DNA from: Chromatiaceae bacterium
GTDB taxonomy: Bacteria > Pseudomonadota > Gammaproteobacteria > Chromatiales > Chromatiaceae
Direction of reading: 5' to 3'
Assembly: GCA_007693535.1 (NCBI GenBank)
Contig: REDK01000063.1
Span: 1-36,476, forward strand
DNA length: 36,476 nt
In this document: positions 27,558 to 36,476 of the stretch, one piece after another
How the letters are laid out: the number at the start of each line of letters is the position of its first letter
How positions within the stretch are numbered: position 1 is the first letter of the stretch
The notes under the pieces: generated by a model
Seen by the model: only the letters and a program-made list of their open reading frames with translations
Told to the model about the DNA's origin: nothing
Database searches by the model: none
Position numbers and translations under genes: made by a program

Positions 27558-29102
27558 ATGAAGACCCTGCTTGCCTCCCTCGGTCGCCACTATTGGCGCG
27601 ACCTGCTCATCGTCACCCTGATCCTGCTGCTGGTGGCAGCGCCGTTCCTGGCCCTGTTCACCGTCGGGCTCGTCTTCTTCTGGCAGCAGGGCTGGTTCCT
27701 GTTTTGGTGGGTCGGCACCGCGGCGGCGCTGGGGTCGGCCTTTGCGCTACGTGCCCTGTGGCATCCCCGTACCCATCGCGCCGAGCCGCGCCCGGCCGAA
27801 CCGTCCGCCCCGCCGGCCGAACATCAGGCCCGCGCGGCGCTGGCGCGCCTGGCCACCGAGGTCAAGGCCGAGGACATGCAGGACGAGTTCGCTGCCTGGC
27901 GGCTCTTCCAGCGCACCGTGCAGGTGGTTGCCGCGGCCTATGCCCCGGATGACCATCTGGCGGTCTGGCGCTTCACCTTGCCCGAGGCGGCCCTGATGGC
28001 GGAGGACCTGACCCGACGGCTGCGTGCCAGCCTGGTGCAGGACTTCCCGGTCCTGCGCCAAGTGGAGATCGCCGCCCTGGTCGGCATCTACGAATTCACC
28101 CAGCCGGCCGGTAAGGTCTGGGGACTCTGGCGTGCCTTGCGCATCGCCGATCCGCTCGGTGCCCTGCGCGACGAGGCCAAGGGCTTGATCATGCGCCAGG
28201 TGATCACGCGCCTGGACCCGGTCGCGCGCGCCCAGGCCGCGGCGATCCTGGTGCAGGAGGCCGGCGAGGTGGCCATTCGGCTCTATGCCGGGCGCTATCG
28301 GCGCCGCTCGCAGGAGCTGCTGGCCACCGCCCCGGACCCGCTGCAGGCGGCCCCCCTGGACCCGGTCACGATCCTGCTGGCCGGCCAGCGCAATGCCGGC
28401 AAGTCGAGCCTACTCAATGCCCTGCTGGGAGCGGCGCGGGTGCCGGTGGGGCTGCTGACCGGCACCCCCGGGGCCTGTCGCGCCTATGCAGTCGACAGTG
28501 CCGCCGGGCGCGCGGACCTCGACCCGGCCGCGGCCGGGGAGACTGCCCGCGCCGGCGACCTGGTGCTGGTGGACAGCCCCGGGCTGAGCGGACGTGCCGA
28601 TGATCCCTGGCTACAACAGGCCCGTCACAGCGACCTGATCCTCTGGGTCGCCGCCGCCAACCGCGCCGACCGCGCCGCCGATCAGCGTGCCCTACAGGCA
28701 CTGGACGCCCTGACCGCCCCCGACCCGCGGCTGCGGGCGATCCCGCGGGTGCTGGTGCTGACCCATGCCGACCGCCTCGACCCGCCGCTGGAATGGGACC
28801 CGCCCTACGACCCCGAGGCCGGTGAGCGCCCCAAGGAGGTCAACATGCGCGCGGCGCAGTCGGTGGCCGCCGAGGCCCTCGGCATCCCCATCGGCTGCAC
28901 CCTGCTGGTGGCGCTGCCGCCGGATGCCGAGTTCTGGAACCTGGCCCCGCTGTGGGCGGCCATCCATGCCGCCTTGCCGGAGGCCAAGCAGAAGCAACTG
29001 GAGCGCGCCCTGCGCCAGGAGGGCTGGGTCAAAGGCGTCGTGGACGGCCTGCGCAGCGTCCCGCGCGCCCTGTCGCGGGGGATCGACTTGCTCATCCGCT
29101 GA
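27558..29102 (+). CDS. Membrane-anchored GTPase of unknown role
   Basis: A 514-residue protein. Two adjacent hydrophobic spans lie at about 14-41 and 44-66. An alpha-helical middle domain (about 90-255) has no family I can name. The GTPase domain has G1 GQRNAGKSS (276-284), G3 DSPG (339-342) and a non-standard G4, THAD (402-405), instead of NKxD; a G2 threonine is likely in TGTPGACR. The last 30 residues are basic and amphipathic. It resembles HSR1/Era-like GTPases with N-terminal membrane anchors seen in gammaproteobacteria; the substrate process is unknown. ATG 27558 is preceded by GGCAGCCTCCCC, a weak site; ATG 27534 is an alternative. It follows the tRNA cluster but has its own transcription unit past the terminator. 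Confidence 0.85.
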   Translation: MKTLLASLGRHYWRDLLIVTLILLLVAAPFLALFTVGLVFFWQQGWFLFWWVGTAAALGSAFALRALWHPRTHRAEPRPAEPSAPPAEHQARAALARLATEVKAEDMQDEFAAWRLFQRTVQVVAAAYAPDDHLAVWRFTLPEAALMAEDLTRRLRASLVQDFPVLRQVEIAALVGIYEFTQPAGKVWGLWRALRIADPLGALRDEAKGLIMRQVITRLDPVARAQAAAILVQEAGEVAIRLYAGRYRRRSQELLATAPDPLQAAPLDPVTILLAGQRNAGKSSLLNALLGAARVPVGLLTGTPGACRAYAVDSAAGRADLDPAAAGETARAGDLVLVDSPGLSGRADDPWLQQARHSDLILWVAAANRADRAADQRALQALDALTAPDPRLRAIPRVLVLTHADRLDPPLEWDPPYDPEAGERPKEVNMRAAQSVAAEALGIPIGCTLLVALPPDAEFWNLAPLWAAIHAALPEAKQKQLERALRQEGWVKGVVDGLRSVPRALSRGIDLLIR

Positions 29103-29555
29103 GGCAGACACCCCGGCCCGACCAACGCTGAGGGGCCATCAGACCACCCGGACTTCGCAACCGGGCTGCTCAAGGAGGGCATCGGGGCATCTCGCTGAAC
29201 CTGATCGACCCGACCTCGGTCGGGTGATCAGGCGCGCTGCGACGTGGCCGGGGCATGCGCCGGGGTTGGGGCGCGCCGCATCCCCCAACCGCTGGCACCA
29301 TGGCTGCCGTGTCGGCCCGCGTCGCTGTTCGTCTCTGGAGGGGGATGCGCTGCGCTTATCCCCCCGACGGGTGCACGTCGTGGCGGCAGTGACGATCGAG
29401 GCTCGGAAGCCGCCTGCTTGCAACCCGCGGGGGCACTGCCACCGGATGCCGTCGCCGCCATCATTGCCGAGCCGGCGCGGTCGCCTGCCATCAGGCCGTC
29501 ATAAGCGGTCGCTATACTGGTGGGACTGCTTCGTCACCAACGCCCCGCGGCCAGT
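29103..29555. other. 453-base intergenic region
   Basis: It lies between the GTPase and btaA, both plus strand. No gene is supportable on either strand. Features are a stable hairpin at 29200-29232 and a -10-like TATACT at 29513-29518, 38 bases before the btaA start, with no clear -35 element. Confidence 0.55.
29200..29232 (+). terminator. Stable hairpin after the GTPase gene
   Basis: CCTGATC pairs with GATCAGG and, inside it past one bulged G, ACCCGAC pairs with GTCGGGT, closed by a C-CTCG-G tip. It is 97 bases past the GTPase stop codon. No T tract follows, so it may stabilise or process the mRNA rather than terminate it by itself. Confidence 0.55.
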
Positions 29556-30773
29556 ATGGCAACACCGACGGCACTGACCCTGGCCGACCGCTTCGACCAG
29601 AAGGCCTTCGACGCGATCTACTCGCGGGCGCTGGTCTACAACACCTGCTGGGAGGATCCAGCGGTGGATCGCCTGGTGCTGTCCATCGCCCCGGACGATC
29701 GCATGCTGGTCATCACCAGTGCCGGCTGCAACGTGCTCGACTATGCCCTGGTCGGGCCGGATCATATCCACGCGGTGGACGCCAACCCGCGCCAGAACGC
29801 CCTGCTGGAACTCAAGCTCGCCGGTATCCGCCGCTTGCAGTTCGAGGACTTCTTCGCCGCCTTCGGGCACGGCTATCATCCGCGCTTCGAGACCCTCTAT
29901 CGCCAGGCCCTGCGCGCGGACCTCTCGGCGTTTGCCCGCGGGTTCTGGGACCGGCGCGTGCGCTGGTTCGGCAATCCGCACGGCAGTTTCTATTTCCACG
30001 GCCTCTCCGGCATCGTCGCGCGCGCCTTCCAGCACTATCTGCGGGTGCGCCCGCGCCTGGCCGCCAGCATCGCCGACCTGTTCGCCACCCGCAGCCTGGA
30101 GGATCAGCGCGCGGTCTACGATACCCGCGTGCAGCCACTGATCTGGACCCCGGAGATCAACTGGACCCTGTCGCGGCAATTGACCATGAGCCTGCTCGGC
30201 GTGCCCCATCCGCAGCGCAAGGAGGTCCAGGAGCAGCACGCCCGCGGCGTACCCGGCTTCGTGCGCGAGTGCATTGAATATGTGTTCCGGCAGTTGCCGG
30301 TCTGGACCAACTACTTCTGGACCGTCTATCTACGTGGGCGCTACAGCGCCGATTGCTGTCCAGAATACCTGCGGCCCGACAATTTCGCGCGTCTCAAGGG
30401 GCAGGGGCAGGGCGACGGCCTGGCCGCGCGCATCAGCCTGCACACGGCCACGGTCTCGGAGTTCCTGGCCGCGAGTGCGCAACCGATCTCCAAGTTCGTG
30501 CTGCTCGATCACATGGACTGGATGAGTTCTTATCATCCCCGGGCCTTGGCCGAGGAATGGTCCCTGATCTTGAAGCGCGCGCGTCCCGATGCGCGCATCA
30601 TCTTCCGCAGTGCGCATGCCGCCCCGGCCTATCTGGAGCGCCTGGAGATCGGCCCGCAGCGGACCCGTCTGCACGCCCGTCTGCGCTTTCATCCGGAACT
30701 GGCCGCGGCGGTGCAGCCACTGGACCGGGTGCACACCTACGCGGGTTTCCACATCGCCGACGTGCCGGCCTGA
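29556..30773 (+). CDS. btaA: SAM:diacylglycerol 3-amino-3-carboxypropyltransferase BtaA
   Basis: A 405-residue DUF3419/BtaA protein. BtaA moves the 3-amino-3-carboxypropyl group of SAM to diacylglycerol, making diacylglyceryl homoserine at the membrane. The family N-terminus is present (IYSRALVYNTCWEDPAVD), then the SAM-binding region MLVITSAGCNVLDYAL with acidic AVDANPRQNALLELKL. Later motifs are LPVWTNYFWTVYLRGRY, YLRPDNFARLKG and VLLDHMDWMSSYHP. The end is VHTYAGFHIADV, as in Rhodobacter BtaA. ATG 29556 is preferred over 29520, which adds 12 residues with no match. TGA overlaps the ATG of btaB (TGATG), so they are translationally coupled. Confidence 0.92.
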   Translation: MATPTALTLADRFDQKAFDAIYSRALVYNTCWEDPAVDRLVLSIAPDDRMLVITSAGCNVLDYALVGPDHIHAVDANPRQNALLELKLAGIRRLQFEDFFAAFGHGYHPRFETLYRQALRADLSAFARGFWDRRVRWFGNPHGSFYFHGLSGIVARAFQHYLRVRPRLAASIADLFATRSLEDQRAVYDTRVQPLIWTPEINWTLSRQLTMSLLGVPHPQRKEVQEQHARGVPGFVRECIEYVFRQLPVWTNYFWTVYLRGRYSADCCPEYLRPDNFARLKGQGQGDGLAARISLHTATVSEFLAASAQPISKFVLLDHMDWMSSYHPRALAEEWSLILKRARPDARIIFRSAHAAPAYLERLEIGPQRTRLHARLRFHPELAAAVQPLDRVHTYAGFHIADVPA

Positions 30774-31723
30774 TGGCGGCGCCGGTGCGCTCGTCCGCGG
30801 TGGCGTCTCCCCGCAACCGCCTGCGGACCTGGGCCGACGAGGCCCGGGTGCTCGCGGCCCTGCTGCGCGGGCAGCCGCGGCACGGCTCCCTGGCCGAGCG
30901 CCTGGATGCCTTCTATCGTCCGCAGGCGGGGCAATACGACCGCTTCCGCGAACGCCTGCTGCATGGGCGTCGCGAACTCATCGCCCGGCTGCAGGTACCG
31001 GCCGGCGGCCACCTGGTGGAGTTGGGGGCCGGGACCGGCCGCAACCTGCTGTTCTTTGTTGAGCTGGACCGGGCTGAGCCGGACAGGGCAGAACAGGGGA
31101 GGGATGAACAGGGGAGGGATGAACAGGGGAGAGATGAACTGGGAAGGGATGAACTGGGAAGGGATGAACTGGGAGCCGGGGAGGGGTCGCGTGCGGAGAC
31201 CGGGCAGGGGGGCGAGCGGCTCGCCGCCATGGGCCGGATCGATCTGGTCGACCTCTGCCCCGCGCTGCTGGCCGAGGCGCGCCGACGCACCGCCGGAATG
31301 GCCAATGTGCGGGTGATCGAGGCCGATGCCTGTACCTACCGACCGGACACCCCGGTCGATTGCGTCTATTTTGCCTACGCCCTGACCATGATCCCCGACT
31401 GGCGCGGGGCGATCGACAATGCCCTGGCCATGCTGCGCCCGGGCGGGCAATTGGGGGTGGTGGACTTCTACGTCTCGGCGGCGGACCCGCCGGCCGGCCT
31501 GGTGCGCCATGACCGGTTCACCCGCTGGTTTTGGCCGCGCTGGTTCGCCCACGATGGCGTCCATCCCGGCCCCGGTCCGCTGGCCTGGCTGCGCGAGTGT
31601 CTGCCGGTGCATGAACTGCAGGAACACCGCGCGCCGGTGCCCTATCTGCCGGGTCTGCGGGTACCCTATTACCTGTTCGTCGGGCGCAAGCCGCAGTCGT
31701 CGCGCATCAGTGGCGGGATCTGA
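30773..31723 (+). CDS. btaB: Diacylglyceryl-homoserine N-methyltransferase BtaB with repeat insertion
   Basis: A 316-residue class I SAM methyltransferase. BtaB trimethylates diacylglyceryl homoserine to the betaine lipid DGTS. Motif I is LVELGAGTGRN (81-91). The second strand (RIDLVDLCPALLAEARRR) does not appear until about 155-172, because some 50 residues of low-complexity sequence (97-151) are inserted between. That insert is encoded by eight copies of a 15-bp unit, reading mostly as EQGRD and ELGRD. Later motifs are CVYFAYALTMIPDW, ALAMLRPGGQLGVVDFYV and a C-terminal LPGLRVPYYLFVGRK that is usual for BtaB. The N-terminal 40 residues are basic. The pair btaA-btaB is the complete bacterial DGTS pathway. 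Confidence 0.9.
   Translation: MAAPVRSSAVASPRNRLRTWADEARVLAALLRGQPRHGSLAERLDAFYRPQAGQYDRFRERLLHGRRELIARLQVPAGGHLVELGAGTGRNLLFFVELDRAEPDRAEQGRDEQGRDEQGRDELGRDELGRDELGAGEGSRAETGQGGERLAAMGRIDLVDLCPALLAEARRRTAGMANVRVIEADACTYRPDTPVDCVYFAYALTMIPDWRGAIDNALAMLRPGGQLGVVDFYVSAADPPAGLVRHDRFTRWFWPRWFAHDGVHPGPGPLAWLRECLPVHELQEHRAPVPYLPGLRVPYYLFVGRKPQSSRISGGI
31061..31180 (+). repeat. 15-bp in-frame tandem repeat in btaB, eight copies
   Basis: Units begin at 31061, 31076, 31091, 31106, 31121, 31136, 31151 and 31166. Copies 3 and 4 (GAACAGGGGAGGGAT) are identical, and copies 6 and 7 (GAACTGGGAAGGGAT) are identical; copies 1, 2 and 8 are degenerate. They encode ELDRA, EPDRA, EQGRD x3, ELGRD x2 and ELGAG. 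Confidence 0.96.
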
Positions 31724-31783
31724 CCGCTAGCGCCGCGGGTCTGCCGGCAGCGCGGATCGCCACCGAGCGCGTCACGGGCGGGT

Positions 31784-31816
31784 GCGGCGACCGCCACTTC
31801 CCGCGGCGGTCGCCGC
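31784..31816. terminator. Perfect 12-bp inverted repeat between btaB and hemP
   Basis: GCGGCGACCGCC (31784-31795) is exactly complementary to GGCGGTCGCCGC (31805-31816) across a 9-base loop. It lies midway between the convergent btaB and hemP stop codons. There is no adjacent T tract on either strand, so it is a possible bidirectional terminator or mRNA 3' stabiliser. Confidence 0.55.
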
Positions 31817-31850
31817 CGATCAGGCCATGCGGGGACGCTCACCCGCCGTG

Positions 31851-31915
31851 CTGACTTCAGCCACTGACTTCAGCCACTGACTTCAGCCGCTTACTTCACC
31901 CGCTTACTTCACCAG
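31851..31915. repeat. 13-bp tandem repeat, five copies, running into hemP
   Basis: Units start at 31851, 31864, 31877, 31890 and 31903: CTGACTTCAGCCA twice, CTGACTTCAGCCG, CTTACTTCACCCG and CTTACTTCACCAG. The last copy contains the hemP stop codon and its final codons (VK). Confidence 0.93.
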
Positions 31916-32086
31916 GATCAGCTTGTCGTTGCGGGTCAGCAGCAGCGTATAGCTGGCGTCGCCGTGCTCGATGACCACGCGGCGTGCGCCCTGCAGCAGC
32001 TCCGTGCTGCGCATCCGCCGTGGCGGCGGTGCCCCAGCGCCCATGGTCTTGGGTTCGTGGGCGGGATTGATGATGGGTGGGGTCAT
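31904..32086 (-). CDS. hemP: Hemin uptake protein HemP
   Basis: A 60-residue protein with the HemP domain at its C-terminus: RRMRSTELLQGARRVVIEHGDASYTLLLTRNDKLILVK, the last residues being the family end. HemP is a small, commonly Fur-regulated protein near haem and iron uptake genes; in some bacteria it acts as an activator of haem receptor expression. ATG 32086 has a perfect AGGAGG 5 bases upstream, which excludes the longer frame to 32182. It follows the porin gene by 162 bases on the same strand and is probably co-transcribed from the Fur-box promoter at 33667-33696. The 3' end is made of repeat DNA (see the 13-bp repeat). Confidence 0.93.
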   Translation of the reverse strand: MTPPIINPAHEPKTMGAGAPPPRRMRSTELLQGARRVVIEHGDASYTLLLTRNDKLILVK

Positions 32087-32160
32087 GATGCCTCCTGATG
32101 AGTGCCGTTGGTTGCCAAGCGGTAGGGGCGCGTTGTCCCGGGGTGCCATGGCGGGATCAG

Positions 32161-32176
32161 GCGCCGCGAGCGGCGC
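32161..32176. repeat. Tight hairpin between porin and hemP
   Basis: GCGCCGC-GA-GCGGCGC is a near-perfect 16-bp palindrome 72 bases past the porin stop codon. It may set the ratio of porin to hemP message. Confidence 0.4.
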
Positions 32177-32248
32177 TCCCATGCCGCCCGGGCGCGGTGC
32201 CCGGATCTGTCCCGGCGCGGCCGGTCCTGCAACCGCGGCGGTGGCGGC

Positions 32249-33607
32249 TCAGAACATGGCCGTCAGCCGCAGCCCGAGCAGCCAGCCCTCGGGATCGCGC
32301 TGAGAGAGGTTTTCGCGGACCAGGTTGTCGCTCATGTATTGGACATTGGCGGTGACCGCCAGGAACTCGTTGACCTGGGCGCGGTAATAGCCCTCGAAGA
32401 CATTGGTGCGGCGCACGTCGGTATTGCCGCCGTCGAGATACGCATAGCCCAGGCCGATATTGTCATCGGGGCGCTGCCAGGGACCGCCGTTGATATTGAT
32501 GCCGCCGGAATACAGCGCCTGATAGTCGACGGCCGCATCTTCTCCCTGCCAGGCCAGGCGCAGAAACGCGCCGAAGACCGGGCCGAGTTCCTGGTCGAAG
32601 GACAGGCCCCAGGCGAGGCGGTTGTGTTTCTTCTCGCCGGCCGGGTCGAGGAACTGCTTGCCGGTGCCGGTGAGGACGAGCCGATAGTTGCCGGCGCCGA
32701 GGGCGAACTCGGGATGCCAGCCGGCCTGCACGCCCCAGAAATTGAAGTTGTTGCCGTCCTCGTTCTCGCCGACGTTCATGCCGACAGCGTGGAACGAGAA
32801 CGCTCCGGCGGCGAGTTCCAGCGCGGCACCGGCATCGTAGGCAGGCAGGTCATAGCTGTGGGCGTTGACGAACGCCTCGTTCATGAACTGGGTGAACTCA
32901 TCGGCAGCGAAGGCGTTGTCGTCCAGATAATCGGCGCTGTTGATGATGCCAAAGGTCGCCCCCAGGGCATTCTCCGCGGGCAGTTGAAACTCATGGCGGT
33001 ACCAGGCCAGCAGCAGATAGTCGCGCCCGCGGCCGTTGATGTCCTTTACATCGGCTTCCAAGTCCGCCGCCCAGGGGGCGAGGCGAAACGGCGAGACCGG
33101 GTTGAGACCGTTGTCCACGCCGAAGCCGACCAGAAAGAAGAACTCGTCTTGGGCGCTCGGGCGCAGGCTGACCTCCAATTGCACCGGGAGGCCGCCACGG
33201 CAGATGTTGCCAGAGTGTTCCAGCAGCGCGGGGTTGGAGAAGTCGTCGAGGCCGTTCCCATTGCCATTGCCGTTGCCGTTCTCGTTCCCATCGCCATAGT
33301 CATTGCCGTTGTACTCATCGCCATTGCCGGCGATGGGCAGGCGGGCATTGACCTGCTGGCATTGGCCGCCCGCGGCGATGAGGCCGCCGATACTGAGCCA
33401 GTCATTGACCTCCAGGCCCGCGGCCGCGCCGGGGAGGGCCAACAAGGCCGCGGCGGCGAACGGGCCTGATCGGATCGGGTTGCGGGTCAGGTTCCGCGCA
33501 TGGCCGCGCCCGTTGGCCGCGGCTCTGACGGTGCCAACGGTGCCAGCGGCGTTGCACCGGGCCACGCTGCTGCCTGCTGCGCCGGCGGGTGGGGTATGAC
33601 TCAACAT
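32249..33607 (-). CDS. Outer-membrane porin (OprB-like)
   Basis: A 452-residue predicted outer-membrane beta-barrel. The signal peptide is displaced: about 45 residues of Arg/Gly/Ala-rich sequence precede the hydrophobic core (PFAAAALLALPGAAAG), with cleavage near residue 64, just before LEVNDWLSIGG. The chain ends in aromatic Phe (LRLTAMF), the outer-membrane insertion signal, and shows amphipathic strands (YRLVLTGTGKQF, GLSFDQELGPVFGAFLRLAWQG, VFEGYYRAQVNEFLAVTANVQY). The pattern fits the carbohydrate-selective porin OprB superfamily; cyanobacterial relatives serve iron uptake. C83 and C136 flank an Asn/Gly/Asp expansion (94-119). ATG 33607 has GAGGAAAGCAGG upstream. A Fur box lies 71 bases before it. 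Confidence 0.85.
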   Translation of the reverse strand: MLSHTPPAGAAGSSVARCNAAGTVGTVRAAANGRGHARNLTRNPIRSGPFAAAALLALPGAAAGLEVNDWLSIGGLIAAGGQCQQVNARLPIAGNGDEYNGNDYGDGNENGNGNGNGNGLDDFSNPALLEHSGNICRGGLPVQLEVSLRPSAQDEFFFLVGFGVDNGLNPVSPFRLAPWAADLEADVKDINGRGRDYLLLAWYRHEFQLPAENALGATFGIINSADYLDDNAFAADEFTQFMNEAFVNAHSYDLPAYDAGAALELAAGAFSFHAVGMNVGENEDGNNFNFWGVQAGWHPEFALGAGNYRLVLTGTGKQFLDPAGEKKHNRLAWGLSFDQELGPVFGAFLRLAWQGEDAAVDYQALYSGGININGGPWQRPDDNIGLGYAYLDGGNTDVRRTNVFEGYYRAQVNEFLAVTANVQYMSDNLVRENLSQRDPEGWLLGLRLTAMF

Positions 33608-33914
33608 GCCTGCTTTCCTCGTCGTGTTAGGTGCGGCCTCAGGCCAGGGGCCGACGCCTGATTGTGATAATAGTACAAATGCGAACGATTCGCATTAAAA
33701 CTTTAAGACCGATTCCCTTGCTGTGCTTAGGGCAGTGCGCGGACCAGCAGTCGCCGATCCAGCTCGGCAGCGTGGCCACCAGGATGCCGCCGCACGGCAC
33801 CAACGGCGCGTGCGGGCCGGCGCAGGCTGGCAGAGGGAAACGCGGCGAGGTCGATCACCCCACCGCCAGACCGATGCGATGTCGGGCGTTGGCCCGTGCC
33901 AGGTCGTCGTCGGC
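33608..33914. other. 307-base region upstream of the porin
   Basis: It lies between the DUF4198 and porin genes, both minus strand. The AT-rich block 33660-33715 holds a -10 box and a Fur box for the porin. The rest (33720-33914) is GC-rich with no credible gene or terminator. Confidence 0.6.
33667..33696 (-). promoter_or_regulatory. Fur box and promoter of the porin-hemP unit
   Basis: AATGCGAACGATTCGCATT (33678-33696) is a perfect palindrome with 8-bp arms around CGA, the form of a proteobacterial Fur box. On the minus strand it is followed after 5 bases by TATTAT (33672 down to 33667), a 5-of-6 -10 box, so Fur would cover the spacer and -35. Predicted start is about 50 bases before the porin ATG. 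Confidence 0.75.
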
Positions 33915-34706
33915 TCAGTCGAGTTCGACCACGTTGATCCAGAGCACCGCGTCCTGCGACAGCTCCTTGCCTTCATGCTCGGTGACCGGGCCGGCCTCCA
34001 GGCAGGCAAAGCCCCAGATGCCCGGGCGCGGGATGCCAAAGGTGAAGACCCCGTTGGCATCGGTCATGGTGACGATGACGGTCTCCGGGGCGGTGATCAG
34101 GGTCTCTTTGCCAAAGGCATTGGCGGTGACGTCCACACTGGTGTTGATGAACTCCACCTCACATTCGATCCCGGCCGCCGGTTCGCCGTCGCTGAGGAGC
34201 TGCCCAGTGAAGGTGCTGCCGGCGAAGACCTGGTAGGGCTTGACCATCGGCACGATCTCGGTCGGCAGGCCGACCGGTTCGTACCAATCGGTCGGCAGAC
34301 CGCCGCGATTGATGATGGTCTTGCTGAATTGCTGGATGAACGTATTCTCACCGTCCTCCCAGTACGGCGCCGGCACTAGCACGAAGCTGTAGTCGCCCTG
34401 ACGCTGCGCCTTGAAGCTGGCGCCCAAGGCCTTGCCCGCGTTCTCGGCGCCTTGCCAGGTGATGGGCGTCAGGCTGTCCGCGAGGTCGGTCTGCTCGCCA
34501 CGGAAGCGCACGAAGAACCGCTCGGGCGCGGCCATGTCCATCACATGGCCATTGTCCAGCGGATGGCCGAAGACCATGCGCAGTTCGATGTCGGCCGGTT
34601 CCGGCAGTTGCATCTGCGGGGTATAGAGCAACTGGAAATGGGCCTGGGCCGCGCCGGCGGCGCTCAGGCTGGCTAGGGCGGCGAGGGTGGTTGGGATGAT
34701 ACGCAT
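33915..34706 (-). CDS. Periplasmic DUF4198 protein
   Basis: A 263-residue secreted protein. The signal peptide (1-22) ends in AQA and the mature chain would start HFQLLYTPQM, so histidine 23 becomes the N-terminus. The family pattern includes RMVFGHPLDNGHVMDMAAPERFFVRF, DYSFVLVPAPYWEDGENTFIQQFSKTIINRGG, then a beta-sandwich half with VFAGSTFTGQLLSDGEPAAGIECEVEFIN and FTFGIPRPGIWGFACLE. DUF4198 proteins are linked to nickel/cobalt and other metal uptake and often carry N-terminal His. A conserved HPLDNGHVMDM adds His and Met. It begins 63 bases after the small periplasmic gene and is probably in one operon with it. GGAGG is 7-11 bases before ATG 34706. Confidence 0.88.
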   Translation of the reverse strand: MRIIPTTLAALASLSAAGAAQAHFQLLYTPQMQLPEPADIELRMVFGHPLDNGHVMDMAAPERFFVRFRGEQTDLADSLTPITWQGAENAGKALGASFKAQRQGDYSFVLVPAPYWEDGENTFIQQFSKTIINRGGLPTDWYEPVGLPTEIVPMVKPYQVFAGSTFTGQLLSDGEPAAGIECEVEFINTSVDVTANAFGKETLITAPETVIVTMTDANGVFTFGIPRPGIWGFACLEAGPVTEHEGKELSQDAVLWINVVELD

Positions 34707-34769
34707 CTGCGGAGGCCTCCTGTTGCATGGCTGAAGGTGGGATGAAGCGGCGCCGCCGGGTGTGGCTGC

Positions 34770-35099
34770 TCAGTCGAAGATGTCGGCGCCATCGATCTCG
34801 ATGACATGCCCAGGACCGGCATCGAACACCACGCGATAATCGCCGTCGGGCTTCTCGAACTCGAATTCGCTGTTATCCGGCATGCTGGTCTCGACCAGCA
34901 CCTGGCCGGCGCCATCGAGGATGCGCAGGGCGATGCCGGCCGCGGAGGACCCATCGGAGAAGCCGCCTTCGCAGAACACGGTGTCATCCGGATTGCCATA
35001 GCAGGCAAACAACGGGGTATGGGCTTGGGCGCCGGCGGCAAAGAAGGCGCCGGCAAGCAGAATGGCCGGGGCGGCGGCCGTGCGGGAGGCTGGACGCAT
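34770..35099 (-). CDS. Small periplasmic protein with mature N-terminal His
   Basis: A 109-residue protein I cannot place in a named family. The signal peptide (1-26, PAILLAGAFFAAGAQA) ends AQA, so the mature protein starts with H27 (HTPLFACYGN). C33 and C43 (FACYGN, VFCEGG) could form a disulfide. The rest looks like a small transthyretin-like beta sandwich (GIALRILDGAGQVLVETSM, EFEFEKPDGDYRVVFDAG), similar in style to the C-terminal half of DUF4198 and to NikL-type proteins. The mature chain is acidic. GGAG lies 8 bases before ATG 35099. It heads the unit with the DUF4198 gene and lies opposite feoAB, with a Fur-box-like site between. Confidence 0.82.
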   Translation of the reverse strand: MRPASRTAAAPAILLAGAFFAAGAQAHTPLFACYGNPDDTVFCEGGFSDGSSAAGIALRILDGAGQVLVETSMPDNSEFEFEKPDGDYRVVFDAGPGHVIEIDGADIFD

Positions 35100-35264
35100 G
35101 ATGGTCTCCGGTGGGTGGTGGATGGGGCACGGTCGCCGCCCGGGGCGCGGCCCGATCAGGGCTGGATCTTTAGGACCCAACCGGCGCGCGGGGCCGGTCG
35201 AACCGGGCGTGCCAACCGCTGCCTGGCACGATGACCGCGCAGGCTATCAGGTCTTTCCGTAGTA

Positions 35265-35283
35265 AACAAGAAAGATTCGCATT
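35265..35283. promoter_or_regulatory. Fur-box-like site
   Basis: AACAAGAAAGATTCGCATT matches 15 of 19 bases of the perfect box at 33678-33696, including the whole right half. It lies between the divergent periplasmic-protein and feoAB genes and abuts the feoA -35 element. Confidence 0.6.
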
Positions 35284-35311
35284 TGCGATCCGGGCCGGTT
35301 CAGCGTAGATT
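35283..35311 (+). promoter_or_regulatory. Candidate feoA promoter
   Basis: TTGCGA (35283-35288), 17 bases, TAGATT (35306-35311), each matching 4 of 6 consensus bases. The Fur-box-like site ends inside the -35 element. It would give a leader of about 210 bases. Confidence 0.45.
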
Positions 35312-35527
35312 GTGGCCTTCGCGAAGGGCGGGAGACCCCGCGCTGCTGGGTTTCTTGCAGGCGCCCCGCGCCCGGGCTTCCCGCGTCCTGGCGCCCCGTT
35401 GGCCCCATTGATCCGCACCAGTGCCGCGCCCGTGGCGAACCGGTTGTGACCGGTTGCGGCCGGCGGCCCTGCCCCCGCCCGGCGCCTGTCTCTATCGTCC
35501 AGCTTCTGCCATCCAGCCCCCGCCGCC

Positions 35528-36022
35528 TTGCTGACCCTCAACGATATCCGTCCCGGCACCCGGGTCCGCATCAAGGCCCATCAGGCGCGCGGCGCCGTGC
35601 GCCAGCGACTCCTGGACCTGGGCCTGATGCCCAATGTGCTGGTCACCGTGGTGCGCAGCGCGCCCCTGAACGATCCCATCGAGATTCGCCTGGATGCCGC
35701 GAGCGTGACCCTACGCCGGCGCGAGGCGGCCAGTATCGAGGTAGTCCCGGCGCCGCCAGACCCGGCGTCAACCCCGCAACCGGCGCCGGCGGTGCGCACC
35801 CTCAACGATGTCCGCCCCGGCGGGCGCGTGCGCATCAAGGCCCATCGCGCCAGCGGCGCGGTGCGCCAGCGCCTGCTCGATCTGGGGCTGATGCCCAACG
35901 TAGAACTGACCGTGGTGCGCAGCGCGCCGTTGAACGACCCGATCGAGGTCCGGCTCGATGCCGCCAGTGTCACCCTGCGCCGCCGCGAGGCGGCGACCAT
36001 CGAGGTCTATGACGATGCCTAG
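35528..36022 (+). CDS. feoA: Tandem two-domain FeoA
   Basis: A 164-residue protein made of two nearly identical FeoA domains (about 2-73 and 89-160) joined by a Pro/Ala linker (PAPPDPASTPQPAPA). FeoA is a small SH3-like cytoplasmic partner of the ferrous iron transporter FeoB. Each copy has TLND(I/V)RPG, VRIKAH, GAVRQRLLDLGLMPN and SAPLNDPIE(I/V)RLDAASVTLRRREAA. Normal FeoA is a single domain of about 75-85 residues. No ATG fits, so TTG 35528 is the best start, with no strong ribosome binding site. The gene overlaps feoB by 8 bases and should be Fur-controlled. Confidence 0.9.
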   Translation: MLTLNDIRPGTRVRIKAHQARGAVRQRLLDLGLMPNVLVTVVRSAPLNDPIEIRLDAASVTLRRREAASIEVVPAPPDPASTPQPAPAVRTLNDVRPGGRVRIKAHRASGAVRQRLLDLGLMPNVELTVVRSAPLNDPIEVRLDAASVTLRRREAATIEVYDDA

Positions 36023-36476
36023 CCCAGCGCGGCTGATGGTGGCCCTGGCGGGCCAGCAGAACGCCGGCAAATCGACGCTGTTCAATGTCCTGACCGGCGC
36101 CCGCCAGCATGTCGCCAACTATCCTGGCGTGACCGTGGACAAGAAGTACGGCCAGTACCGGGACGCCCAGGGCCCGGTCCAGACCGTGGACCTGCCCGGG
36201 ACCTACAGCCTGACCTCCTTCTCGCTGGAGGAACGCGTGGCGCGCGACTTCCTGCTCGGCGAGCGCCCCGAGGTCACGGTCAACGTCGTGGATGCCTCCA
36301 ACCTGCGCCGCTCCCTGCACCTGACCCTGCAACTGCTGGAGATGGAACTGCCGACGCTGCTGGCGCTGAATATGATCGATGTCGCCGAGCGGCGCGGCAT
36401 CGGTCTGGACCGCGACGCGCTGGCGGCGCGGCTCGGTCTGCCGGTGGTGGCCACCATCGGCCGCAAGGGGGTGGGC
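36015..36476 (+). CDS. feoB: Ferrous iron transporter FeoB, N-terminal part
   Basis: The first 154 residues of FeoB, cut by the window edge. The G domain has G1 GQQNAGKS (13-20), G2 threonine in YPGVTVDKK (T40), G3 DLPG (59-62, then TYSL) and G4 NMID (119-122). FeoB is the inner-membrane Fe2+ transporter with this N-terminal GTPase. ATG 36015 is preferred because GAGG lies 9 bases upstream within feoA; ATG 36009 is in the same frame but too close. The overlap with feoA indicates coupled translation. Confidence 0.95.
   Translation, partial: MPSPARLMVALAGQQNAGKSTLFNVLTGARQHVANYPGVTVDKKYGQYRDAQGPVQTVDLPGTYSLTSFSLEERVARDFLLGERPEVTVNVVDASNLRRSLHLTLQLLEMELPTLLALNMIDVAERRGIGLDRDALAARLGLPVVATIGRKGVG

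Follow-up and report, generated by a model that had tools for sequence, protein, structure and literature searches.

How ferrous iron crosses the periplasm to FeoB has, to our knowledge, been little studied; the Feo system is usually drawn without a periplasmic part, and no periplasmic Fe(II) carrier is known for FeoB systems. A locus at the right end of a 36,476-nucleotide stretch of DNA from a Chromatiaceae bacterium (contig REDK01000063.1; the whole stretch is referred to as the window) raises the question of whether such a carrier exists, as feoA and feoB diverge there from genes for two exported proteins of the NikL and NikK type. The right end of the window (29,000–36,476) was read, open reading frames (ORFs) were listed, and domains were assigned by Pfam and NCBIfam profile scans. 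A preliminary description of this DNA had proposed an envelope-spanning, Fur-controlled metal uptake system composed of hemP, an OprB-like porin, a DUF4198 protein, a small periplasmic protein, a double FeoA, and FeoB; all of these parts were present, feoB with its start only, arranged as follows.

31904–32086, minus strand: hemP (PF10636, 54.1 bits, cut-off 25), likely 60 aa; the listed ORF reaches 32182
32249–33607, minus strand: OprB-family outer-membrane porin (PF04966, 30.1 bits, cut-off 22.9), with a signal-like N terminus
33678–33696, no strand assigned: Fur-box-like palindrome AATGCGAACGATTCGCATT, before porin–hemP; score 16.3 of a maximum of 17.4
33915–34706, minus strand: NikK-like DUF4198 periplasmic protein (PF10670, 174.6 bits, cut-off 34)
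34770–35099, minus strand: short NikL-like secreted protein (NF058648, E 5.6e-12); start corrected to 35099
35265–35283, no strand assigned: Fur-box-like site AACAAGAAAGATTCGCATT, between the divergent nikL-like gene and feoA; score 14.1
35528–36022, plus strand: feoA, two fused FeoA domains in one ORF (PF04023, 133 bits, two stretches)
36015–36476, plus strand: feoB, 5' part only, G domain (PF02421 FeoB_N, about 198.6–198.9 bits)

The small secreted protein, the DUF4198 protein, the porin, and hemP are encoded on the minus strand, and feoA followed by feoB on the plus strand. Both periplasmic proteins had been seen in the preliminary description, but their kind was missed. By sequence, the DUF4198 protein is NikK-like, and with the NikL-like protein it resembles the periplasmic parts of nickel/cobalt energy-coupling factor (ECF) transporters; NikK and NikL were named as extra periplasmic parts of NikMQO in a 2004 reconstruction (PMC545781). 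The small protein matched no Pfam family above cut-off. Its match to the NCBIfam NikL model NF058648 (46 bits, under the curated cut-off of 100) covers model positions 3–90 of 180 and leaves the C-terminal half unmatched; this second half presumably holds the C-terminal membrane segment of NikL, which was also seen in the NikL of locus L036. The AlphaFold model of the small protein (109 residues, mean pLDDT 89.9) contains an N-terminal helix and strands only, with a short helical turn at 104–106. As judged from these comparisons, the small protein is a short NikL relative without the C-terminal membrane segment.

The neighborhoods of this protein were surveyed by scanning 84,980 species genomes with it, which gave 119 confirmed relatives, the best 80 of which were kept as named loci (L052–L131). 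These loci are not independent, as many are from Vibrionaceae and Chromatiaceae and some repeat genomes of the family sample described below. FeoA or FeoB adjoins the NikL-like gene in 75 of the 80 (45 divergent, 20 with nikL(K) and then feoAB, 10 with feoAB and then nikL); no adjacent Feo was found in L058, L081, L082 (contig edge), L103, and L120. A NikK-like gene adjoins the NikL-like gene in 76, two of the four exceptions (L066 and L095) lying at contig edges, and NikM or NikQ was found in 0 of 80 at a profile E ≤ 1e-5. The recurrence of the small protein and DUF4198 beside feoAB, on which the preliminary description had staked its proposal, was borne out by this survey. That three gene orders are found in two phyla argues for function rather than frozen synteny. 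Viral contigs scanned with the small protein gave no match.

Classical NikL genes keep different company. Eleven of 12 distinct genes sit with NikM, and the twelfth, L036, has NikK and no NikM or NikQ within the 18 kb read. On the feo-type profile the 12 genes reach 18–27 bits, against 124–203 bits for the main copies of the 80 loci. In the family sample, 15 of 96 genomes matched the small protein, 11 of them closely (>120 bits) and the other four at 22–27 bits. Within the 11 close genomes, which include that of the window, feoA or feoB is next to the pair in nine; it is not in L036, and FeoA lies 5 kb off in L040. The phylum sample gave matches in 18 of 398 genomes, own genome included, and its strong new matches, L132 and L133, adjoin FeoB or FeoAB. 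The genome of the window also holds a separate NikM–NikL–NikQ–NikO set on contig C17 (L047:5376–8236). No NikK match was found in the 15 kb read around that set, and a feo-type search of the genome found only the NikK-like gene of the window.

A middle group of NikL-like proteins (57–100 bits) gave no genuine match to Feo within the 3.3 kb read; in the two genomes checked further (L220 and L221) its genes sit beside ZnuA-like, DUF6162, DUF2271, or DUF4198 proteins. At L221:4455–9547, a NikL-like gene of this clade stands beside DUF2271, DUF4198-like, DUF6162, ZnuA-like, and ABC genes. Two members of the clade (L134–L145 and L221) were read as protein (L140 in part, and L145); in both, AHFPL follows the signal peptide, and L145 retains a Cys pair. 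At L042:7486–8556, in the same genome as L041, feoB has beside it a second NikL-like gene, which is split over two frames.

Control of the locus was examined by scoring 19-mers against a proteobacterial Fur consensus, with first-order Markov shuffles (500 per region) for comparison. AATGCGAACGATTCGCATT is the top-scoring 19-mer of the whole window and was equaled in 0 of 500 region shuffles, and AACAAGAAAGATTCGCATT is the second best, with about 1 of 500 shuffles as high (p about 0.002), so that the two sites named in the preliminary description rank first and second among all 19-mers of the window. No Fur-like site stood out in the gap between porin and hemP (p 0.69). For the divergent relatives, a Fur-like site was present at p ≤ 0.05 in 40 of 44 scorable loci and at p ≤ 0.01 in 29 of 44, one further locus (L057) being too short for scoring. 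Where the pair follows feoB, a site was found in 0 of 10 loci, as expected if the pair is co-transcribed with feoB, and in the unlinked loci in 1 of 5. In alphaproteobacteria, other regulators may account for the absence of Fur-like sites. The palindromes upstream point to membership of the locus in the Fur regulon, with Fur expected to bind there in the cell.

The NikK-like protein was then compared with solved structures. Its AlphaFold model (mean pLDDT 91.9) is nearest in fold to Zcp with Zn, Co, or Cu (9mhi–9mhn, Z 18.7–19.6) and to the Ni-bound DUF4198 protein of Ideonella sakaiensis (9gcb, Z 17.2 over 186 residues); both are far ahead of the next match (Z 6.2), at an identity of just 16–20%. 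In 9gcb, Ni is held by the N-terminal His and His18 with a Kd of 18 nM (PMC12537917). Residue 1 of 9gcb aligns with model residue 23, the His that follows an A-x-A cleavage motif in the window protein; His23 is the likely mature N terminus and His48 the second candidate ligand. Both are invariant in 37 of 37 alignment rows. Among the NikK-like relatives, a His follows the signal peptide in 74 of 74, and His22, His47, and Met55 (His23, His48, and Met56 in the window) are invariant. A motif difference in DUF4198, QQ[IF]TK versus HYTK, was considered as an iron/nickel signature and dropped, as NikM-linked L146–L148 have QQITK or QQIAK and ZnuA-linked L220 has QQFTK.

The NikL-like proteins show the same N-terminal feature. 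His27, Cys33, Cys43, and His98 of the window protein (His22, Cys28, Cys38, and His93 in family numbering) are invariant in 80 of 80 relatives, which come from 79 loci, L098 giving two and L095 none. With cleavage judged from the A-x-A motif, a His directly follows the signal peptide in all 80, with a strict A-x-A ahead of it in 59. The invariant Cys pair may form a disulfide. Fold matches were generic β-sandwiches, the best being an alpha-2-macroglobulin domain (Z 12.2 over 76 residues); they say little on function, and other folds are possible. Kinship to CopC was rejected, the profile match being just E 0.03.

A tree of 90 NikK-like proteins was built, omitting L144, L145, and two duplicates; of the 75 rows assigned to feo, four (L058, L081, L082, and L103) have no feo genes next to them. 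The window protein groups with that of Thiocapsa imhoffii (support 83/63), within a starred set of 21 feo-group rows. The feo rows are strongly clustered, requiring 4 changes versus 14.2 in shuffles; an exclusive feo clade was not upheld, given these four changes and three NikMQO-linked rows inside. One ZnuA-linked row, on a long branch, falls among desulfobacterial feo rows. Metal-site histidines are identical in every alignment row printed. Since the feo group is clustered but not exclusive, the NikK/NikL-type module seems to have changed partner.

We favor, with moderate confidence, the reading that the locus is a variant of the Feo system in which proteins with an N-terminal histidine catch periplasmic Fe(II) and pass it to FeoB; Fe(II) as the metal, its hand-over, and the flow through the porin are the parts that we infer. 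When iron is scarce, Fur would free two promoter regions, one driving the nikL-like and nikK-like genes leftwards and feoA–feoB rightwards, the other driving porin–hemP. Fe(II) would pass into the periplasm via the OprB-type porin, presumably by passive flow. Both exported proteins would expose a His as the first residue after signal-peptide cleavage, and a histidine-brace-like candidate site (His23 and His48 in the NikK-like protein, His27 and His98 in the NikL-like protein) could bind the metal. By analogy with what is thought of NikK and NikL for NikMQO, the pair may retain weakly bound Fe(II) in the vicinity of FeoB and deliver it there for import driven by GTP. What survives of the earlier proposal is a Fur-box-marked locus spanning the envelope, with a periplasmic pair that belongs to FeoAB; the porin, hemP, and the absence of a receptor did not turn out to be constant.

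Several observations weigh against this reading. FeoAB works without a NikL-like protein in, for example, Escherichia coli, and only 11 of the 96 family genomes have a close NikL-like protein (FeoB was not counted there). The contig (C2) ends inside feoB, of which the window holds about the first 154 codons. L091 and L120, read well past the gene, have a NikL-like gene without adjacent NikK, so the pair need not work jointly, and among the 20 loci in which nikL(K) comes before feoAB, just 8 have a Fur-like site at p ≤ 0.05. The porin types sought are present in only 10 of 80 loci (OprB in 2; LbtU in 8, of which one is weak and another is truncated by a contig end), and hemP, with one weak match, is not conserved. 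On the tree, the three NikMQO-linked rows fall among alphaproteobacterial feo rows. The His pair is alike in the nickel-, zinc-, and copper-linked NikK-like relatives aligned, so sequence does not specify iron, and the solved DUF4198 protein was stabilized most by Ni(II), with iron absent among the four metals named (PMC12537917). Such a protein pair might handle a different divalent metal (Ni, Co, Zn, or Cu), or buffer stray metal against mis-loading of FeoB, and be expressed at low iron without feeding FeoB. The 18 nM Kd for Ni (PMC12537917), the relatives that sit with NikMQO, ZnuA, or CopC/CopD (L216), and the likeness of the metal-site histidines in the aligned relatives (the distant ZnuA-linked L144 and L145 left out) are all compatible with this. 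It nevertheless seems improbable to us in view of the 75 of 80 NikL-like genes that adjoin feoAB, the 0 of 80 loci with NikM or NikQ, the Fur-like sites at the shared promoter, and the separate NikM–NikL–NikQ–NikO locus of the same genome (L047). A role in chelated or ferric iron uptake was also weighed, in which the pair would serve with an outer-membrane receptor or LbtU-type porin and a cassette of ABC ATPase, 221-aa protein, and DUF4857, FeoB importing the reduced product. DUF4857 occurs in 25 of 80 loci, twice (L103 and L120) beside a NikL-like gene without adjacent Feo; the LbtU siderophore-porin family occurs in 8 of 80, one weak; and a DUF4857/hypothetical/ABC ATPase trio of Bacteroides thetaiotaomicron rises 36–65 fold without iron (PMC10434189). 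We think this role decidedly unlikely, as DUF4857 had no match in the genome of the window (the control matched 1 of 14 genomes) and none in 55 of 80 loci within the DNA read, and the window porin matches no NCBIfam model at E ≤ 1, LbtU (NF033652) included. The LbtU profile gave no match in the genome of the window, nor in any control genome, so absence of that family is not established.

A narrower account, compatible with the Fe(II) carrier reading, would make the porin and hemP Fur-regulated neighbors with tasks of their own, as a general or ligand porin and a haem-uptake regulator, leaving only the nikLK–feoAB divergon as one system. With hemP and OprB profiles built from several sequences and the porin search limited to the OprB and LbtU types, 2 of the 80 loci had the OprB type and 1 a weak hemP match; the two were dropped as constant parts. 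In the window this porin type comes with a Fur-like site of its own, as it does, at or just before the ORF 5' end, in relatives that lie away from feo (L186, L188, L191, L197, and L198). Against separate tasks stand the OprB porins of two other lineages, on different sides of the feo/nikLK genes: that of T. imhoffii (L059) lies immediately downstream of feoB, and that of a deltaproteobacterial metagenome-assembled genome (L129) downstream of nikK. Against them stand also the unrelated LbtU family, whose gene comes immediately after nikK in five loci and in a sixth case truncated by a contig end; and porin–DUF4198 pairs that recur elsewhere (L201–L203, the porin preceding DUF4198, in one case with CopC and CopD next). 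On balance, separate tasks are possible but somewhat doubtful. Matches to the window porin type were found in 17 of 106 family genomes and 18 of 274 class genomes (the latter mostly weak; own genome in both), one preceding an imelysin gene (L185). Profiles found no metal-related neighbors at L180–L183, L187, L189, L190, L192–L194, L196, and most of the weak matches in L199–L212. As for a TonB-dependent receptor, which had been described as missing, no such family was identified among the eight proteins scanned of 29520–36476, but eight Plug-domain matches lie elsewhere in the genome; its absence was set aside as a hallmark, as a receptor was found in 5 of 80 loci (with a single-sequence, insensitive profile).

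Further features were noted at these loci. The hemP start is likelier at 32086, with AGGAGG four bases ahead of the ATG, and this is the sole hemP match in its genome. The feoB start was corrected to the ATG at 36015, giving an 8-base overlap with feoA; it is the only strong FeoB match in the genome. The two FeoA domains are identical to each other at 62 of 72 aa. Across the 80 loci, 72 ORFs matched FeoA, and not one of them carries two domains. The genome has two DUF4198 genes, the second on contig C67 close to a Plug-domain match, and two Fur-family genes (Fur-family protein match, 149.6 bits). The porin has an acidic Asn-Gly-rich insert near residues 95–125, encoded by short in-frame repeats (33251–33310) and absent in six aligned homologues. 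Porins of this type were also seen in a copper setting (L216:6205–9733, followed in a row by DUF4198, CopC, and CopD) and in a nickel/cobalt setting (L184:5849–9886, followed by CbiM/NikM-PDGLE, a NikQ-like protein, and an ABC ATPase-like protein).

In many of the 80 loci, an ABC ATPase, an approximately 221-aa membrane-like protein, and the DUF4857 protein are encoded behind feoB or beside nikL (e.g. L034:1593–4405). At L058:11922–15099, L081:10083–13231, and L053:10402–14719, the genes behind nikLK encode a MamC-like protein and an HMA_2-domain P-type ATPase; the MamC-like call (NF038051) is below cut-off and was made on L036, the same stretch as L058. These neighbors resemble what we take to be ferrosome (Fez) gene sets. 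To the left of the locus, window 29520–31723 carries a DUF3419 gene and then a methyltransferase gene (Pfam), presumably the BtaA/BtaB gene pair of betaine lipid synthesis. The methyltransferase gene contains five and a half in-frame repeats of 15 bases (31091–31173), and nearly five copies of GCTGACTTCAGCC (31850–31911) lie at and past the hemP 3' end, between converging genes.

More broadly, and with slightly less than even confidence, NikK/NikL-type proteins may be an interchangeable periplasmic metal-relay module that serves inner-membrane importers unrelated to one another: NikMQO for nickel/cobalt, FeoAB for ferrous iron, ZnuA-type ABC importers, and CopC/CopD. The metal would be determined by partner and regulator rather than by the binding site, and in the Feo branch the module would provide the periplasmic Fe(II) carrier. 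If so, "nickel transport" labels on DUF4198/NikK-like proteins can misname the metal, and an explanation is offered for the orphan NikK/NikL genes that a 2009 survey left without explanatory neighbors, suggesting nickel-independent roles (PMC2667541). A pair of small soluble proteins, simple to produce and linked to feoAB in at least two phyla, also gives a direct experimental handle on the periplasmic Fe(II) step. Within the literature searched for NikLK or DUF4198 with Feo, no description of a NikLK–Feo link was found, and the word Feo does not occur in the main text of the paper on the Ni-binding DUF4198 protein (PMC12537917). The composition had been put forward as new; this holds for the NikLK–Feo link, as far as the literature searched, but not for a Fur-controlled OprB porin with feoAB, which was proposed in 2004 and 2008. 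The new element is the widespread and so far overlooked association of a NikL/NikK-like pair with FeoAB, not porin plus FeoAB.

Both periplasmic proteins of the window are homologous to NikK/NikL of NikKMLQO, and in both a His follows the signal peptide; however, the feo-type NikL is short, has no C-terminal membrane segment, and adjoins feoAB rather than nikMQO, and its invariant Cys pair was not seen in the one classical NikL read (L036). FeoPABC of Acidithiobacillus, with an OprB-family porin and Fur boxes (PMC2631029), and the Fur-controlled OprB porin predicted before feoA–feoA–feoB in Geobacter sulfurreducens (PMC545781) likewise unite porin, Fur box, and feoAB, but the descriptions consulted mention no NikK/NikL-like pair with feo; the window porin, moreover, is on the strand opposite to feoAB with its own Fur-like site, and nikLK lies between it and feoA, unlike the FeoPABC order of porin preceding feoA. 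A single Fe(II) path in E. coli joins OmpC/OmpF, for passive entry through porins, to FeoB, but these are general porins under EnvZ/OmpR, and the parts of that report consulted describe no periplasmic carrier (PMC7315122). Francisella, which is without TonB, has an outer-membrane Fe(II) protein, FupA, that feeds FeoB; the FupA/FslE family is described as unique to Francisella, and NikLK-like proteins are not mentioned in the parts of that source consulted (PMC5378763). DUF4198 genes are induced without iron in Alteromonas and Avibacterium (PMC7190382, PMC7970244) and belong to the Fur regulon of Caulobacter, as followed by lacZ tests (PMC3751524), but in Caulobacter and Alteromonas they accompany TonB-dependent receptors or DUF2271, not FeoAB, in the descriptions consulted (PMC3751524, PMC7190382). 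Finally, although 9gcb and Zcp differ from the NikK-like protein of the window at most positions (16–20% identity), they share its fold, and its N-terminal His stands in register with residue 1 of 9gcb.

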